Below the pieces are notes generated by a model that saw nothing but the letters and a program-made list of their open reading frames with translations, was not told the origin of the DNA and did not search any database. The translations under genes and the position numbers were made by a program. A stretch of DNA of 64,000 nucleotides from Streptomyces halstedii (lineage in GTDB: Bacteria; Actinomycetota; Actinomycetes; Streptomycetales; Streptomycetaceae): positions 146,254 through 210,253 of the forward strand of contig JOAZ01000014.1 of assembly GCA_000720535.1 (NCBI GenBank), given 5' to 3'. The number at the start of each line of letters is the position of its first letter. Position 1 is the first letter of the stretch. Positions 12,167 through 19,671 of this stretch are shown here, piece by piece.

Positions 12167-12844
12167 TCAATTCGCCGAAGCCTTCTCCTGCTTGAGCTCG
12201 CTGGGCCGTACGATCACGAAGCCCTCGCCCTGGAGCATGAGCTGGACGGCCTCGCCGGAGCCGCCACGCACCATCGAACCGAAACTCTGGGAGCGGTGCA
12301 GCGAGGTGGAGAGCTGGGCGCTCCAGCCGACGACCGCGTCCGTGTCGACGTACACCGGCTGCTGCGGGGTGACGGGGATGACGATGGGGTGGCCGTCGCA
12401 TATCAGGCCGAGCTTGCCGGCGCCGGTGAAGACGCTGTTGAAGAGGCCGCCGCCGGCCATCCCGGCGCCCTTGACCGTCTTGATCTCGTAGGCGAGGCCG
12501 GGGTCGAAGCACAGCACGTTGCGGCCGTTGATCGTCAGGACGTCACCCTGCTCCATCTCCACGATGAAGCAGTTCGCCGCCTCGTGGGCGAACCAGGCCT
12601 CGCCCTGGCCGCGTACGGCCATGAGCGGCAGCCCCTCGCCGGTGAAGGCGCGCTTGAGCATGCCGCCGACGCCCTGGCCCTTGCGTTCGAACTGGAGGTT
12701 GCCCCGGAAGGCGATCATCGCTCCCTGGCGGGCGTGCATCTCACCGTTGACGGCGTACTTGATGGATTTGGCGTTCTGCAACGTCATACCCGGGGCGGTG
12801 GCCTGCTGGGCCATGTGCTCGCTGGAAAAGAGGTCGCTCTTCAT
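12167..12844 (-). CDS. AIM24 family protein
   Basis: Single-domain AIM24/TerB-linked beta-sandwich protein of about 225 residues. The landmarks are VNGEMHARQGAMIAFRG near the N-terminus, the glycine-rich FTGEGLPLMAVRGQGEAWFA, FDPGLAYEIKTVKGAGMAGGGLFNSVFTGAGKLGLI and a final LQGEGFVIVRPSEL. Streptomyces carry several AIM24 paralogues of unknown function; yeast Aim24 is a mitochondrial organisation factor. ATG 12844 (MKSDLFSSEHMAQQ) is preferred to ATG 12853 and the start at 12868 because homologues begin about there. It is divergent from the PTH2 gene with only 72 bases between starts. Confidence 0.88.
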   Translation of the reverse strand: MKSDLFSSEHMAQQATAPGMTLQNAKSIKYAVNGEMHARQGAMIAFRGNLQFERKGQGVGGMLKRAFTGEGLPLMAVRGQGEAWFAHEAANCFIVEMEQGDVLTINGRNVLCFDPGLAYEIKTVKGAGMAGGGLFNSVFTGAGKLGLICDGHPIVIPVTPQQPVYVDTDAVVGWSAQLSTSLHRSQSFGSMVRGGSGEAVQLMLQGEGFVIVRPSELKQEKASAN

Positions 12845-12916
12845 GGCGTGCATCCTCACCCGGAGCACCGGGTTCCGCCAACAGGCGCCGTCCGGGGGCC
12901 TGGCAGACTGGAATCC

Positions 12917-13660
12917 GTGAGCAGCGACGACACCCCCGAGACCCTTCCCGCGACGGCCGCGGCCGACCCGTTCCGTCCGGAGCCGGCCACCCGCGACGAG
13001 GCGCCCCAGTACGTGCTACCGCTGGTGGTGCGTCTGGAGAAGACCGATCCGCCCGCGCGCACCGACGCGCTGCGGACCGCCGCGCGCGCGGTGCTCACGA
13101 TGCTGTCGGACGAACGTTCGCTGGGCGACGGGGAGTGGGCGCGGGCGATGCGGGACTGGGAGGACGCCCGCATCCGCAAGGTGGTGCGCCGGGCGCGTGG
13201 CGCGGAGTGGCGCAAGGCGTGCGCGCTGCCGGGGATCACGGTCACGGGCGAGCGGGCCGAGGTCCGGGTGTTCCCGCCGGTCCCGCTGGACGGCTGGCCC
13301 AAGGAGCTGGCCAAGCTCCAGGTGTCCGGCACGGAGCTGGACGACCCCGAGCCCCCGCCGGTCCCCGACGGGACGGGGCCGGTGCTGTGGCTCAACCCCG
13401 AGCTGGACATGTCGGCGGGCAAGACGATGGCGCAGGCCGGGCACGGCGCCCAGCTCGCGTGGTGGGAGCTGTCCGGCGCCGAACGCGCGGCGTGGCGCGA
13501 GGCCGGGTTCCCGCTCTCCGTCGCCGCCCCGGAGGCCGAGCGCTGGCGCGAGCTGACCGTGAGCGGACTGCCGGTGGTCCGGGACGCGGGGTTCACCGAG
13601 ATCGCGCCCGGCTCGTGCACGGTCGTCGCGGACCACCCGGCCCTGCGCCGCCGCCGCTGA
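12917..13660 (+). CDS. PTH2-family peptidyl-tRNA hydrolase-like protein
   Basis: Two-part protein of 247 residues. The C-terminal ~120 residues match the PTH2 fold: LNPELDMSAGKTMAQAGHGAQLAWWEL (cf. the family's GKxxAQxxHA), a helix with the substrate-facing region, and the closing VRDAGFTEIAPGSCTVVADHP. PTH2 enzymes hydrolyse peptidyl-tRNA. The N-terminal half is helical and specific to actinomycetes. The GTG at 12917 follows CAGACT (12904-12909) by 7 bases, so the transcript may be leaderless. Cellular role besides the family activity is unknown; many Streptomyces also have a classical Pth1. Confidence 0.8.
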   Translation: MSSDDTPETLPATAAADPFRPEPATRDEAPQYVLPLVVRLEKTDPPARTDALRTAARAVLTMLSDERSLGDGEWARAMRDWEDARIRKVVRRARGAEWRKACALPGITVTGERAEVRVFPPVPLDGWPKELAKLQVSGTELDDPEPPPVPDGTGPVLWLNPELDMSAGKTMAQAGHGAQLAWWELSGAERAAWREAGFPLSVAAPEAERWRELTVSGLPVVRDAGFTEIAPGSCTVVADHPALRRRR

Positions 13661-13709: not shown

Positions 13710-13855
13710 GGAATCCCGGCCTGCGCACCCCGGCCACCCTGCCCGGGAACCTCAAATCGAGCTCTGAACGTCCCTCTTCCCGGATTCGACGGCGCCCGGC
13801 GGGGCCATCACCCTCCCACGGGACGGGGACCCGTACGGGACGGGGAGGGGACATC

Positions 13856-15238
13856 ATGAAGCTGGGAATCGGCATCGGCTGGCGGCCCGAGATCGCGGAC
13901 GCCGTCGAGGCACTGCCGGGTGTCGACTGGGTCGAGGCCGTGGCCGAGAACATCTGCGCCGACCATCTCCCCGAACCGCTCGCACGGCTCCGGGAGCGTG
14001 GGGTCACCGTCGTCCCGCACGGAGTCTCGCTGGGCCTGGGCGGGGCCGGCCGGCCCGGAGCGGACCGCCTCGCGGACCTGGCGGCACGGGCCGCCCTGCT
14101 GGACGCGCCGCTGGTGACGGAGCACATCGCGTTCGTACGGGCCGGGGGGCCGCTCACCGCGTCACCCGGGCTGGAGGCGGGCCATCTGCTGCCCGTGCCG
14201 CGCACCTGGGACGCGCTGGACGTGCTGTGCGAGAACGTACGCGTCGCCCAGGACTCGCTGCCCGTGCCGCTCGCCCTGGAGAACATCGCCGCGCTGATCG
14301 CCTGGCCGGACGAGGAGCTGACCGAGGGCCAGTTCCTCGCGGAACTGGTCGAACGCACCGGCGTACGCCTGCTGATCGACGTGGCCAACCTGCACACCAA
14401 CCACGTCAACCGGGGCGAGGACCCCGCGACCGCGCTCGACGAACTGCCGGTGGAGGCCATCGCGTACGTCCATGTGGCGGGCGGGGTCGAGAAGGACGGC
14501 GTGTGGCACGACACACACGCCCACCCGGTGACGCGGCCCGTCCTGGACGTGCTGACCGAGCTCCGGGCGCGGGTGGATCCCCCGGGTGTGCTGCTGGAAC
14601 GCGACGACGCCTTCCCGCCCGCCGAGGAGCTGGCGGGCGAACTGACCGCGATCCGCGAGACCCTGGCGGCCGCCGCCCCGCCCGCCGCGTCGCGCTCCGC
14701 GCGGCCCGGCACGCGGCCCGGCACGCGGTCCGGGGAGCAGACCCCCGGGACGCGACCCGCTCCCGCGCCCGGGGCCCGGGAGCGGGTCGCGGTGGCGCAG
14801 ACCGCGGTGCTCTCCTCGCTGGTGGCGGGCACCCCCGTGCCCGAGGGCTTCGACCACCGGCGGATGGCGGTGCAGAGCCGCGCCCTGGCCGCCAAACGGG
14901 CCGACGTCGTCGCCAAGGTCGCCCCGGAACTGCCGCTGATCCTCGGCGACGGCTACCGGCTGGCGTACCTCGGGTACGCCAGGACCCGCCCGCTGTCCGG
15001 CGGTTACCGCCGCGACGCGCTGGACTTCGCGGAGCACCTCCTCATCGCGGGGCTCCCGGCCGACGACGACGCCCGCCGTGGGCTGACCCGGTGGTGGCAG
15101 GACCGGGCGGCCCCCGGACCACCGCGCCGCGGGGCCCGTCTGGTCCGGGCGGCGCGTGACATGCGGGTCGTCCGGGCGGCGCGTACCGCCCTGTCGCGAA
15201 CTCTGCCGGGAACCCGGTCGGGACGGGGGACCCGGTGA
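13856..15238 (+). CDS. Multinuclear non-haem iron oxygenase (MNIO, DUF692) with C-terminal extension
   Basis: DUF692/MNIO enzyme of 460 residues. Characterised relatives (MbnB, TglH, ChrH) use two or three iron ions to oxidise cysteine or other side chains in ribosomal peptides. The TIM-barrel iron ligand positions are intact: His55 (VVPHGV), His90 (VTEHIAF), Glu142 (LALENIA), Asp175 (LIDVANLH), His206 (AYVHVAGG), Asp219, His221 and His223 (HDTHAHPV) and Glu248 (LLERDD). After about residue 275 comes an Arg/Pro-rich linker and a ~150-residue helical domain (about residue 315 on) of the kind found in the S. coelicolor SCO6045 type, a plausible substrate-binding module. The ATG at 13856 follows GGGGAGGGG. 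The stop overlaps the next start (GTGA), coupling it to the Cys-tailed TIGR04222 protein, its likely substrate. Confidence 0.9.
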
Positions 15239-16254
15239 ACGCCCTCGCGCTCGTGTGCACCCTCGCCGTGGTGGTCTCCTGCGTCCTGCTGCTCGTCCTG
15301 CCCCCGGCATCGGGCCGCAGCAGGGGCGGCGGGGCAGGCGAACGGGTGCACGACCTCTCGGAGGCGGCCTTCCTGGGCGGTGGTCCGGCCAGGACGGTCG
15401 ACACCGCGCTCACCGCCCTCTACGCGGACGGCCGCCTGGTGGTCGGCGGCCCCGGCATCGTCGCCGTACGCCGGGCGGCGGCCCGTGACGTGGTGGAGCG
15501 TGCCGTGCTCCAGGAGGCGGCCGCCGCGCCGAGCGGCGCCCTGCGCCCCCTGCGGGAGGCCGCGATGCGGCACCCGGCGGTGCAGGAGATCGGGGACGGA
15601 CTGGCCGCCCGAGGGCTGCTGGCCCCACCGGGCGGCAACCGCGCGCGCCGCCGGTGGGCGCTCACCCAGGGCGTCGGGTGTGTCGTGGGCTTCCCCGTGA
15701 GCATCGGCCTGACCGTGGCTCAGTACGCCCTGCACGAGGGGTACGACGACGTGCCGTTCCCGTTCGTGGTCAAGGTGCTGCCCGCGCTCGTCCTGGGCGC
15801 CGTCGTCGGTCTGGTCGTCGCGGCGTCCGCCAGGGCACGGCTCACCCGGGCGGGACGCCGGGCCGCCGACGCCTACCGGGCCGCCCACGCCCAGGTCGCC
15901 CACCCGGCCCACCTCGTGGCCACCCGGGGACTCGCCGCACTGCCCTACCCCGAACTCCGGGAGCAGTTGCTGACCGCCGCCCGGCACAACTCCCCCGGCC
16001 GCACCGGCGGGATGGTCACGTCGGCGGGCGTGGGGGCGGGGGCGTACGCCGGTCACAGCGGGCCGCAGCCGGTGTGGTGCGCGGGGGCCGCTCCCGGCGG
16101 CGGGAGCTGCGGCGGCAGCGGTGACGCGGGATCCGGGTCCTCGTGCGGTTCGGGCGGCGGGGACGGCGGAGGGCCGAGCTGCGGCGGGGGCTCAAGCTGC
16201 GGGGGCGGATCGAGCTGCGGCGGTGGGGGCGGGGGCTGCGGCAGCAGCTCGTGA
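15235..16254 (+). CDS. TIGR04222 membrane protein with Gly/Cys-rich C-terminal tail
   Basis: Membrane protein of 339 residues in the TIGR04222 family. Three hydrophobic segments are visible (about residues 3-22, 143-165 and 178-200). The conserved domain includes the motif [20 protein letters not shown] and a helical part with ERAVLQEAA. From about residue 280 the sequence is almost only Gly, Ser and Cys, with cysteines at 282, 292, 304, 316, 322, 328 and 335 in SCGGG units and spacings that are mostly multiples of six. It starts with a GTG whose last bases overlap the MNIO stop. Function is unknown; the tail and coupling suggest that it is the MNIO substrate, which is inference. Confidence 0.88.
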
Positions 16255-16354: not shown

Positions 16355-17176
16355 ATGCTCTGGGTCTTGTTCCTCCTGGTCGCATGGGGCGCGGCGGCCG
16401 TCTCCTGCGTTCGGCTCTGCCTCGTCACCGCGGGCGCCGCGCTGCGATCGTCCGACGCCCCGGGTGCCCCCGGTGCTCCCGGCACCCCGCTGCCCCGCGA
16501 TCTCAGCCTGTACGAGACGGCGTTCCTGGCCGGCGGACCGCACCGGGTGGCGGATCTGGCGCTGGTCTCGATGCATCTGCGGCGCCGGCTGCTGCTCGCC
16601 CACACGGGCTGGGCGACGGTCGTCGATCCGGTGGGCCGCGACGAGGTGGAGCGCACCGTGATCCGGGCGATCGGCCCGGAGGGGCAGTCCCGGATAGCGC
16701 CGATACGGGCGGCCGCTGCCGCCGCAGACACCGTGCGCGGGCTCGCGGACCGTCTGGTGGCCGCCGGACTGGCCGTACCGCACGGCACGCGGACCACCCT
16801 GGAGTCGGCCACCCGGGGAGTACGGGGCGCCGCGGTGCTGGTGGTGGTGCTGGCCGCGGTGACCGCGCTGATGCCCGGTCAGGACACGGGCGACGCGGGC
16901 CCGGTTGCCGCGTGGTTCGGGCTGCCGCTGGTACTGACCCTGGGGTGCCTGGCCATCGCCCACGCGGAGAGCAGGCCGTACAGCCCGTGGGCCTCGCCGC
17001 CCGGCCAGCGGTGGCTGGACTCGCTGCCCGCCCCGGCGCACGGCGCGGACCGCGAGATGCTGGCGGCGGTGGCCGTACGGGGGGTGGCGGCGGTGCGGGA
17101 CCCGCGGCTCCGGGCGGCGCTGCTCGGCGGCCGTCCCGCGCGTCTGCCCGGCCGGTCACCGGGCGTGGAGAGCTGA
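16355..17176 (+). CDS. TIGR04222 membrane protein without Cys tail
   Basis: Paralogue of the preceding gene, 273 residues. It shares the N-terminal membrane segment, the SLYETAFLAGGPHRVADLALVSM motif, the DEVERTVIRAIG helix and a pair of later membrane segments (about 152-170 and 185-205), but ends in an Arg/Pro-rich stretch with no Gly/Cys region. It begins 100 bases after the tailed paralogue and probably belongs to the same transcript. A role as a membrane partner or carrier for the modified tail is conceivable; nothing in the sequence fixes it. Confidence 0.82.
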   Translation: MLWVLFLLVAWGAAAVSCVRLCLVTAGAALRSSDAPGAPGAPGTPLPRDLSLYETAFLAGGPHRVADLALVSMHLRRRLLLAHTGWATVVDPVGRDEVERTVIRAIGPEGQSRIAPIRAAAAAADTVRGLADRLVAAGLAVPHGTRTTLESATRGVRGAAVLVVVLAAVTALMPGQDTGDAGPVAAWFGLPLVLTLGCLAIAHAESRPYSPWASPPGQRWLDSLPAPAHGADREMLAAVAVRGVAAVRDPRLRAALLGGRPARLPGRSPGVES

Positions 17177-17489: not shown

Positions 17490-18203
17490 CTATGCGAGCC
17501 CCGCCACCAGGTCTGCGATCGCCTTCCGGCGGCCGGTGTAGAACGGGACCTCCTCGCGGACGTGCATCCGCGCCTCGGAGCCCCGCAGGTGACGCATCAG
17601 GTCGACGATGCGGTACAGCTCGTCCGCCTCGAAGGCCAGGACCCACTCGTAGTCGCCGAGCGAGAAGGAGGGGACGGTGTTGGCGCGCACGTCCGGGAAG
17701 CCGCGGGCCATCTTGCCGTGGTCCGCGAGCATACGGCGGCGGTCCTCGTCCGGCAGCAGGTACCAGTCGTAGCTGCGCACGAAGGGGTACACGCTGACGT
17801 AGGCGCGCGGCTCCTCGTCGGCGAGGAAGGCCGGCACGTGCGACTTGTTGAACTCGGCCGGGCGGTGCAGGGCCATGTTCGACCAGACCGGCTCCAGCGC
17901 GCGGCCGAGCGAGGTGCGCCGGAAGAGGTTGTAGGCCTCCTGGAGCGCGTCGGAGGTCTCGGCGTGCCACCAGATCATCAGATCGGCGTCGGCCCGCAGA
18001 CCGGAGACGTCGTAGGTGCCGCGGACGGTGACGTCCTTGGAGGCGAGCTGGTCGAACAGCTCCTGGACCTCGTCGGCGTAACCGGCGCGGTCGGCGGGAA
18101 GCACATCTCGCAGCTTGAAGACGGACCACAGCGTGTAGCGGATGACCTCGTTGAGGTCCTTGGCCTTCTTGCCTGCGTTCGGAAGCTTTTCTGGCGCACT
18201 CAT
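17490..18203 (-). CDS. hemQ: Coproheme decarboxylase HemQ (chlorite dismutase family)
   Basis: HemQ converts Fe-coproporphyrin III to haem b in Gram-positive bacteria, the last step of the coproporphyrin-dependent route. The 237-residue protein has the actinobacterial HemQ landmarks: [14 protein letters not shown] at the start, [24 protein letters not shown], the catalytic-tyrosine segment [20 protein letters not shown] near residue 135, [15 protein letters not shown] with the haem-ligating His (about residue 160) and [18 protein letters not shown]. It lies 4 bases downstream of hemY and is certainly cotranscribed with it, so consecutive pathway steps are adjacent. Confidence 0.95.
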
Positions 18204-18207
18204 ACGG

Positions 18208-19671
18208 CTATTGTCCCGCCTCGCTCCCGGCGCCCTGAACCCGGGTCGGCGTGGCGGTGATCTCCTCCGCGATCTCGTCCGCCGCCCGCCGGGCGCTCGC
18301 CACGCAGGCGGGGATGCCCACCCCGTCGTAGACCGCCCCGCACACCCGCAGCGCGGGGAGCTTCGCCACCTCCTCGCGGATCCGGGCGACCCGGCCCAGG
18401 TGGCCGACGGGGTACTGGGGCAGGCCGCCGATCCACCGGGTGACCACGGTGTCCACGGGCCGGGCCGTCAGCCCCGTCGCCTCGGCGAGGTCCCTCAGCG
18501 ACACCGCGACGAGCTCGGAGTCCTCGCGGTGCAGGTGGTCCTCCTCGCCGTAGCGGCCGACCGAGGTACGCATCACGAAGAGGTCGGGGGCCGCGTCCGC
18601 GACCCACCGCCACTTGTGGCTGGAGAAGGTGGCGGCCTTGATGGCGCGTCCGTCGACGGGCGGTACGAGGAAGCCGGAGCGGCCCCGCAGCGCCTCGGTC
18701 CCCTCGACGTCGGAGCGCCGGAAGGCCAGGGTGACCAAGGCCATCGAGGCGTACTCCACGGCGGCCAGCTCGACGGAGGCCGCCGGGCACTCGGCGGCGA
18801 GCAGCGTGGACGCGGACCAGGCCGGCGCGGCCATCACCACACCGTCGGCGGCGATCACCCCGGTCTCGGTGCGCACGTCCCAGCCCTGGCCGGTCCGGGT
18901 CAGACCGAGGACGGGGGTGGCGGTACGGATCCGCGCCCCGCCCGCCCGCACGGTGTCGGCCACGGCGTCCGGCAGGGTGCCGACGCCGCCGGCGATGCCC
19001 TGGAACACCGGGCCGGTCAGCTGCCGGGCGGCGGCCCTCTCCTGGACGCGGAGGACGCCGTCGAGCAGCGAGCCGCCCTCCTTCACCACCTCGAAGAGCT
19101 GCGGCACGGCGGCCCGCATCGAGATCCGGTAGGCGTCGCCCGCGTACACCCCGCCGAGCAGCGGCTCCACGAGCCGGTCGACGACCTCGCGGCCGAGCCG
19201 GTCCGCGACGTAGGCGCCGACCGCGACGTCGTCGCCGACGGCGGTCGGGGTGAGGTCGCGCTCCTCGGCGATCCGGGCCAGCCCCTCGGCGGAGAGGAGC
19301 TCGCCGAGTGCCGCCGGATCGCCGGGGACGCCCATGACGTGGCCCTTGGGCATGGGGCGCAGGGCGTCCCGGGTCCAGACCGAGGCGGTGGCGGTGGCGG
19401 GCGGCTGGAGCCGGTCGCCGAGACCGGCGGCGGTGGCCAGCTCCACCGCCTCGGGCCGGCGGGCGAGCATCGACTCGGCCCCGAGGTCCACCCGCGCCCC
19501 GGCGACCTCACCGGTCATCAGCTTGCCGCCGAGCCGCTCGGTCGCCTCCAGGACGGTGACCCGCAGCCCGGTGGCGAGCAGCCGGTGGGCGGCGGCGAGT
19601 CCGGCGATGCCGCCGCCGATGACGACGACATGACCCAGGGGCGAGGTGTCGTGCTGAAGAGAACGCTGCAT
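18208..19671 (-). CDS. hemY: Coproporphyrinogen III oxidase / protoporphyrinogen oxidase HemY (CgoX)
   Basis: FAD-dependent oxidase of 487 residues that removes six electrons from coproporphyrinogen III (HemY of Gram-positives, also called CgoX). The dinucleotide-binding motif [20 protein letters not shown] is at residues 14-33 and the glutamate [14 protein letters not shown] follows; the C-terminal FAD motif is [26 protein letters not shown]. It is upstream of hemQ with a 4-base gap. Expected location is cytoplasm, membrane associated. The start at the ATG 19671 gives about 13 residues before the GxGxxG motif, normal for the family. Confidence 0.93.

Follow-up and report, generated by a model that had tools for sequence, protein, structure and literature searches.

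What does an enzyme of the MNIO family (DUF692, MbnB_TglH_ChrH) act on when its immediate neighbour is a membrane protein with a cysteine-rich tail? The question is raised by a gene pair in a 64,000-nucleotide stretch of the Streptomyces halstedii genome (contig JOAZ01000014.1, positions 146,254 to 210,253), hereafter the window. The MNIO gene (13856..15238, + strand; 460 amino acids, ATG start) overlaps by four bases, as an earlier note on this DNA had reported, the gene for a TIGR04222 membrane protein (15235..16254, +; 339 amino acids, GTG start; 153 bits against a curated cut-off of 43). The Gly/Ser/Cys tail of the latter (amino acids 282-339; 16078..16251, +) is the candidate substrate, and its seven cysteines lie at 282, 292, 304, 316, 322, 328 and 335, just where that note had placed them; the other cysteines of the protein are at 8, 16 and 149. 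The functional link behind this enzyme-substrate pair finds support below, but the pair itself was not new, having already been proposed in print by Antoine et al. 2025 (PMC12452194), who named Ser/Gly/Cys tails of TIGR04222 proteins as MNIO substrates. In its passages on such clusters, that paper left it open whether modification of TIGR04222 proteins takes place, and in what way, where a partner gene is seemingly lacking. We suggest that in Streptomyces a partner may be fused to the enzyme, and the sequences compared here make it rather probable, though far from assured, that the tail is modified by such a self-partnered MNIO. What is new relative to the published proposal is the fused partner-like domain, together with another protein that has such a tail and is encoded at a different site in the genome.

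The catalytic TIM-barrel domain of the enzyme (amino acids 4-270 by its Pfam limits; 13865..14665, +) matches PF05114 with 256 bits against a cut-off of 25. All nine residues listed in the earlier note are present (H55, H90, E142, D175, H206, D219, H221, H223 and E248), and none of them varies among the 79 proteins aligned, namely the window protein and those of 78 of the 80 MNIO loci of its nearest relatives (L046 and L068 were left out); 79 of these related loci have a readable MNIO and 77 are uncut. We take the nine positions to be the iron ligands. An AlphaFold2 model of the protein (mean pLDDT 83.4) finds its best PDB matches in TglHI (8hci, 8hi7), the DUF692 protein 3bww and MbnABC (7fc0, 7dz9, 7tcr), with Foldseek E values of 5.8e-18 to 8hci_B and 3.0e-15 to 3bww. 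Assignment as a bufferin maturase (BufB) or an HvfB-type maturase was rejected, the scores of 172.4 and 138 bits lying below the respective equivalog cut-offs of 310 (NF050167) and 360 (NF003818). A second, far higher scoring MNIO class (PF05114 E about 1e-104 to 1e-110) is present in a few actinobacteria (G037:C22, G104:C1, G173:C1, G013:C34, G113:C17, G528:C1 and G580:C34), and is possibly the classical BufB/HvfB type.

Behind the barrel the same model predicts a helical domain (about amino acids 305-420; 14768..15115, +) with helices at 307-324, 334-355, 358-377, 383-397 and 404-418, conserved in the family with a mean column identity of 68% over a 48-sequence alignment. Elsewhere this domain is frequently a gene of its own. 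Of 40 MNIO loci from genera other than Streptomyces, taken from a class sample of 296 Actinomycetes genomes (the same set that served the MNIO, TIGR04222 and C-terminal domain searches), 34 have it, as a separate gene in 24 and fused in 10, and the position directly after MNIO is occupied by it in 34 of the 40. The reading frames were picked mechanically, such that some separate ones are longer than the true gene. All ten fused cases fall in a single family, f61, where separate ones occur too. Seven loci of an order sample (197 genomes, the MNIO-bearing ones nearly all Streptomyces) likewise pair a short MNIO with the domain as a separate adjoining gene. In bufferin-type plasmid loci the partner gene directly follows and overlaps the MNIO gene in five of six annotated cases, the sixth having an intervening gene; a plasmid search with the C-terminal domain itself returned one Streptomyces record. 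The Pfam family that matches the domain most often is DUF2063, in 11 of the 48 aligned members and with E no better than 0.0079. Comparison with DUF2063 by hhalign gave P 7.7e-5 over 85 columns, collinear with the core, for a profile made mainly of separate proteins. A broader set reached 5.3e-4 over 72 columns; the 18 controls, for which the MNIO barrel and 17 gene clusters from the neighbourhood served, all gave P of 0.039 or more. The nine-sequence separate-domain profile includes L090 and L091, two fragments of fused genes truncated at the locus end. DUF2063 itself was found in one of 119 Actinomycetota genomes, with no match in the genome of the window, and a PDB sequence search with the C-terminal profile returned chance-level matches only.

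Because the domain stands as a separate gene after MNIO in other taxa, in a bufferin-like layout, and has collinear similarity to DUF2063, it looks like a fused PME-type 2 partner. The suggestion in the earlier note that it could serve as the substrate-recognition module is thus strengthened. Among 12 of the 14 places in the main text of PMC12452194 that speak of fusion, none describes an MNIO-partner fusion, and a search of the literature since 2024 found nothing that combines MNIO, Streptomyces, a membrane protein and cysteine. The fused partner-like domain would be a concrete answer to that paper's question about clusters seemingly without a partner gene.

The tail, for its part, keeps company with the enzyme. 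A tailed TIGR04222 gene (at least four tail cysteines, the threshold used for Streptomyces-type loci) lies beside MNIO in 67 of the 79 related loci with a readable MNIO, and this adjacency is more than chance. Across the class sample the C-terminal domain was found in 51 genomes, MNIO in 66 and TIGR04222 in 86, and the three occur together in eight families (f5, f7, f56, f60, f61, f71, f78 and f87). The gene order is not the same throughout: outside Streptomyces TIGR04222 is upstream of MNIO (29 adjacent proteins examined) and the C-terminal domain after it, and in Streptomyces TIGR04222 is downstream. A class survey took in 70 TIGR04222 proteins, each followed to its stop codon; the Streptomyces proteins at the MNIO locus were counted separately, and a tail was scored when the last 60 residues held at least three cysteines and at least 60% Gly, Ser and Cys together, or by a 30-residue variant of the same rule. 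Such a tail is carried by 26 of 29 MNIO-adjacent proteins, by 4 of 20 that are not adjacent to MNIO but come from genomes that have it, and by none of 21 proteins from MNIO-free genomes (Fisher p 3e-11, MNIO-adjacent versus MNIO-free); several of these 21 proteins keep Gly-rich tails that end in Asp. One MNIO-adjacent protein with a short but real Gly/Cys end (G537) was scored as a miss, and 14 weak or unfetched matches lie outside the survey (G390, G354, G368, G449, G580, G386, G339, G462, G346, G326, G550, G358, the second of G544, and G402). Identical tails are hence not found mostly in MNIO-free genomes, the distribution that the earlier note had set against its own proposal, albeit that the phylogenetic control on this count is weak.

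On which side of the membrane does the tail lie? Hydropathy predicts three transmembrane (TM) helices in the window protein, at 4-22, 143-161 and 177-195, and in 83 of 94 tailed Streptomyces-type proteins; these 94, from all scanned loci, have 5 to 11 tail cysteines, having been chosen for at least four. The 83 have a common charge pattern, acidic in the stretch from TM2 to TM3 and basic behind TM1, ahead of TM2 and behind TM3, with a mean of 3.7 Lys and Arg residues after TM3 versus 0.36 before it. By the positive-inside rule the Streptomyces tail is probably in the cytosol, which contradicts the published view, PMC12452194 calling the TIGR04222 tail periplasmic. A cytosolic tail would be on the side where the enzyme is expected, and the surface structure imagined in the earlier note becomes unlikely for Streptomyces. 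A substitution test on gap-free tails yielded just two pairs, both misaligned.

Upstream of the pair lies a conserved, putative promoter of the extracytoplasmic function (ECF) sigma-E type, GGAAC-N18-CGTC (13746..13772, +). The full pattern around this core, GGGAACCTCAAAT-NN-AGCTCTGAACGTCCC, with 25 specified bases, occurs once in the window; no other copy was found there with up to three mismatches, and none in 100 shuffles. The exact pattern recurs in 31 of the 80 related loci. Its relaxed form, GGAAC-N17-19-CGTC, precedes the catalytic domain by no more than 300 bp in 70 of 136 loci (51 of 79 related and 19 of 57 order-sample loci), compared with 51 of 2720 random windows. The evidence here is the conservation of the promoter and not the motif, since bare GGAAC-N16-18-CGTC occurs eight times in the window. 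An ECF sigma factor that responds to envelope stress probably controls expression of the operon. The MNIO orthologue of S. coelicolor we take to be SCO6045. A gene of that name is listed in an RNA-Seq table on the HbpS-SenS-SenR redox system (PMC4991794). In spacing and in both elements the promoter resembles S. coelicolor sigma-E promoters (PMC6767563 Table 1; PMC10771440), and the main texts of those two papers do not contain the string sco604, such that the MNIO gene is not known to belong to that regulon.

Several observations weigh against modification of this tail by a self-partnered enzyme. The C-terminal domain of the window protein itself matches neither PF09836 (DUF2063) nor any other Pfam family, a first, mixed profile reached only P 1.8e-3 against DUF2063, and no RRE module was found, such that it does not qualify as a PME-type 1 partner (DUF2063 with RRE); the DUF2063 similarity, taken alone, is weak. 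Outside Streptomyces the charge bias points inward in only 14 of 27 proteins, an ambiguous topology signal. The relaxed promoter is missing from 66 of the 136 loci, many of them more distant, and is present in only 3 of 10 uncut loci without a tailed gene. Moreover, the Fisher value overstates the association of tail and MNIO, because the proteins are related and the independent events few. A TIGR04222 domain tree (62 of the 70 survey proteins and 18 from Streptomyces) affords four independent contrasts for the presence of MNIO (means of 0.7 in agreement, 0 in opposition and 3.3 without difference) and, on supported branches, three for adjacency (2.6, 0.0 and 0.4, respectively). On phylogenetically independent pairs the association is not significant, nor could so few contrasts make it so, and it is not proof.

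This weak control leaves room for coincidence by descent, and with it for an explanation in which the tail is a plain, unmodified thiol element for metal binding or disulfide formation, MNIO acts elsewhere, and the adjacency is inherited or a regulatory convenience. Cysteine-rich tails are able to bind metals without any enzyme, and MNIO persists where the tail does not. We nevertheless think this explanation unlikely: adjacency holds in two gene orders, and the tail is absent from all 21 TIGR04222 proteins of MNIO-free genomes even though Gly-rich tails stay in several of them.

A different objection to modification of the TIGR04222 tail comes from loci that keep the enzyme alone. The tailed gene is missing from 12 of the 79 related loci, or 10 of the 77 uncut ones when L015 and L043, which are cut by contig ends (in L043 inside the tail), are set aside. 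Fused MNIO loci of the order sample have it in 24 of 51 cases and lack it in 27, in a sample that is not random but partly chosen for TIGR04222 absence, one batch having been filled mainly with genomes without TIGR04222. By genome, the order sample has an MNIO match in 175 of 197, nearly all Streptomyces, and TIGR04222 in 154; eight of the Streptomyces listed are without MNIO; MNIO occurs without TIGR04222 in 23, and TIGR04222 without MNIO in two, G044 and G169, the protein of the latter having no Cys tail. Half of the ten genomes with an untailed, uncut locus have no TIGR04222 match at E <= 1e-5, the threshold for gene counts in the window's own and related genomes, and the other five have a TIGR04222 paralogue without a Cys tail (G199 also has a second weak match, outside this reading). 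As MNIO in the ten untailed loci keeps all nine residues, the tail is not the only reason for keeping the enzyme, which in those loci probably has some other use. The functional link between MNIO and tail proposed in the earlier note is supported by class-wide adjacency in both gene orders, but does not by itself account for retention of the enzyme. A Gly/Cys-tail reading frame hidden beside MNIO was found in none of 41 scanned loci out of 44 untailed ones (L015, L043 and L124 being outside the scan), at a sensitivity of 8 in 10, and three-frame reading after MNIO in ten loci, by eye, met with an alpha/beta hydrolase, DUF4142, the paralogue without a Cys tail, or nothing recognised. Genes of a DUF4142 cluster lie near MNIO in 50 of 121 loci, tailed and untailed alike (for example L016:5084-5875, L058 and L074), a count that omits loci where the simple gene caller missed MNIO. 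DUF4142 was rejected as a plain replacement for the tailed gene, since it accompanies MNIO in 31 of 83 loci that have that gene and in 19 of 38 that do not.

Could the main substrate in Streptomyces then be another protein, with the TIGR04222 tail an occasional or former one? A search for repeated Cys-Gly-Gly patterns in 42 Streptomyces genomes led to a family of unannotated small membrane proteins, here termed SWWA-type, whose single N-terminal TM helix is followed by a basic region, in most cases a Ser-Trp-Trp motif and, behind a linker, the same Gly/Cys tail. The genome of the window encodes one (L307:4997-5284, on G000:C12), with relatives in L308-L319. Among five members scanned, none had a meaningful NCBIfam or Pfam match. 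In 13 loci the gene lies between an aminotransferase gene and genes with DUF2617 and spermine-synthase domains (by blastp clusters, with Pfam on L308). The charge pattern agrees with that of the tailed TIGR04222 proteins in 15 of 15. The copy in G158 has no Trp-Trp motif, and G127 (L310) has three copies. A promoter common to the MNIO and SWWA-type genes was sought and rejected, the strict form occurring in none of 15 upstream regions and a looser form in one.

The distribution of this family also speaks against the TIGR04222 tail as the one substrate. An SWWA-type protein is present in at least 15 of 34 MNIO-bearing genomes searched, that of the window included, and in at least 12 of the 30 without a tailed gene at the MNIO locus. 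Together with the many loci that retain MNIO without a tailed gene, this favours a principal substrate other than the TIGR04222 tail, whether SWWA-type or something else. Such a substrate is possible, and we hold it in some doubt, given that other families have the tailed TIGR04222 gene right beside MNIO and that no SWWA-type protein is evident in the matched letters of six fully listed MNIO-bearing untailed genomes (G012, G129, G084, G030, G123 and G051; of these only the G129 cluster was also translated). In MNIO-free genomes no such tail was found in G169 (no match), G010 (one match, translated) or G035 (two matches, the first of them or the other translated and the remaining one assessed by its letters), nor in the translated first match of four further genomes of a total of eight, G109 being outside this count. 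The co-occurrence of SWWA-type protein and MNIO is suggestive only.

A further alternative is that MNIO acts on a residue other than cysteine, in the TIGR04222 domain or in another protein. Bearing on it is the second TIGR04222 gene of the window, absent from the earlier note and directly downstream of the pair (16355..17176, +; 144.6 bits, cut-off 43). It encodes a paralogue without a Cys tail that has cysteines at 18, 22 and 198 only; the domain tree places it among the tailed proteins of Streptomyces (SH-aLRT 93, under the starred level). At E <= 1e-5 the genome has one MNIO and these two TIGR04222 genes. Such a paralogue stands beside MNIO in many loci, and some MNIO enzymes are described as modifying Asp, Asn or Phe (PMC12452194). 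However, several tailed loci, L013, L014 and L021 among them, show no such paralogue, and the presence of the tail follows adjacency, and we consider a non-cysteine target quite improbable. The paralogue is also retained in several genomes that have no tailed gene.

The wider surroundings of the pair can be described briefly. A PTH2-like gene, which the earlier note does not list either, lies upstream (12932..13660, +, the piece tested, its start being uncertain; PF01981, 36.9 bits), preceded by an AIM24-family gene (12167-12868, -; Pfam). Downstream are a chlorite-dismutase-family gene (17490-18203, -; Pfam) and a protoporphyrinogen-oxidase-like gene (18208-19671, -), the latter judged by look only. 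These last three kinds of gene (clusters c1, c5 and c0) recur around MNIO in other loci, and they possibly form a haem-synthesis neighbourhood.

We suggest, returning to modification of the tail by a self-partnered MNIO, that the operon could be a self-contained cysteine-modifying system, probably expressed under an ECF sigma factor for envelope stress. The fused, DUF2063-like PME-type 2 partner domain would bind the membrane protein or its tail and present cysteines to the iron site, which would oxidise some of them. By analogy with the Cys-targeting MNIO enzymes of PMC12452194, the product would most likely be of the thiooxazole or oxazolone-thioamide type, as in bufferins and methanobactin. 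The result may be a multidentate, membrane-tethered ligand or sensor for soft metals of the copper type, a role for copper being proposed by the same analogy. With a tail that faces the cytosol in Streptomyces, the finished membrane protein would be modified in place, and the same enzyme might act in trans on the SWWA-type small membrane protein. More tentatively, and with clearly less confidence than we attach to modification of the tail itself, the Gly/Cys tail may be a portable modification tag, by which a single-chain, fused-partner MNIO under envelope-stress sigma control would convert at least two unrelated membrane proteins, TIGR04222 in the operon and SWWA-type in trans, into cytosolic, membrane-tethered ligands with modified cysteines; this would be protein modification, and not the making of a secreted peptide product. 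If true, MNIO chemistry would extend to resident membrane proteins, in an order where, as given above, most genomes sampled have an MNIO match.

How does this locus compare with known systems? Its closest counterparts are the MNIO-TIGR04222 clusters of PMC12452194, in which MNIO likewise stands beside a TIGR04222 membrane protein with a C-terminal Ser/Gly/Cys region. The adjamnio-II type of that paper (Table 2) has the order peptidyl-tRNA hydrolase, MNIO, TIGR04222, to which the order here is similar, but the hydrolase signature named there is PF01195 and that of the PTH2-like gene here PF01981. Many of those clusters, however, seem to have no partner gene, whereas the present enzyme has a partner-like domain fused to it and the tail is predicted to be cytosolic. 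The bufferin (BufBC) and HvfBC systems resemble this one in having MNIO followed by an overlapping partner gene and in targeting cysteines (PMC12452194), but bufferin precursors are Sec-exported, and the MNIO here falls below the BufB and HvfB cut-offs in a genome with no DUF2063 match. TglHI (pearlin) and MbnBC (methanobactin) give the best structural matches of the barrel and have the same two-part architecture of enzyme and partner, although in both the substrate is a peptide and the partner a separate chain. MovX, like the present enzyme, is an MNIO whose additional domain may stand in for the partner (PMC12452194), yet that domain is of the winged helix-turn-helix type and MovX targets Asn, in contrast to the DUF2063-like helical domain here. 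The nearest relatives of the domain itself would be the PME-type 2 partners of the same paper, short DUF2063-like helical proteins encoded after MNIO, among them actinobacterial ones of 115 and 158 amino acids; unlike them, in most Streptomyces loci examined the domain is fused to the enzyme.

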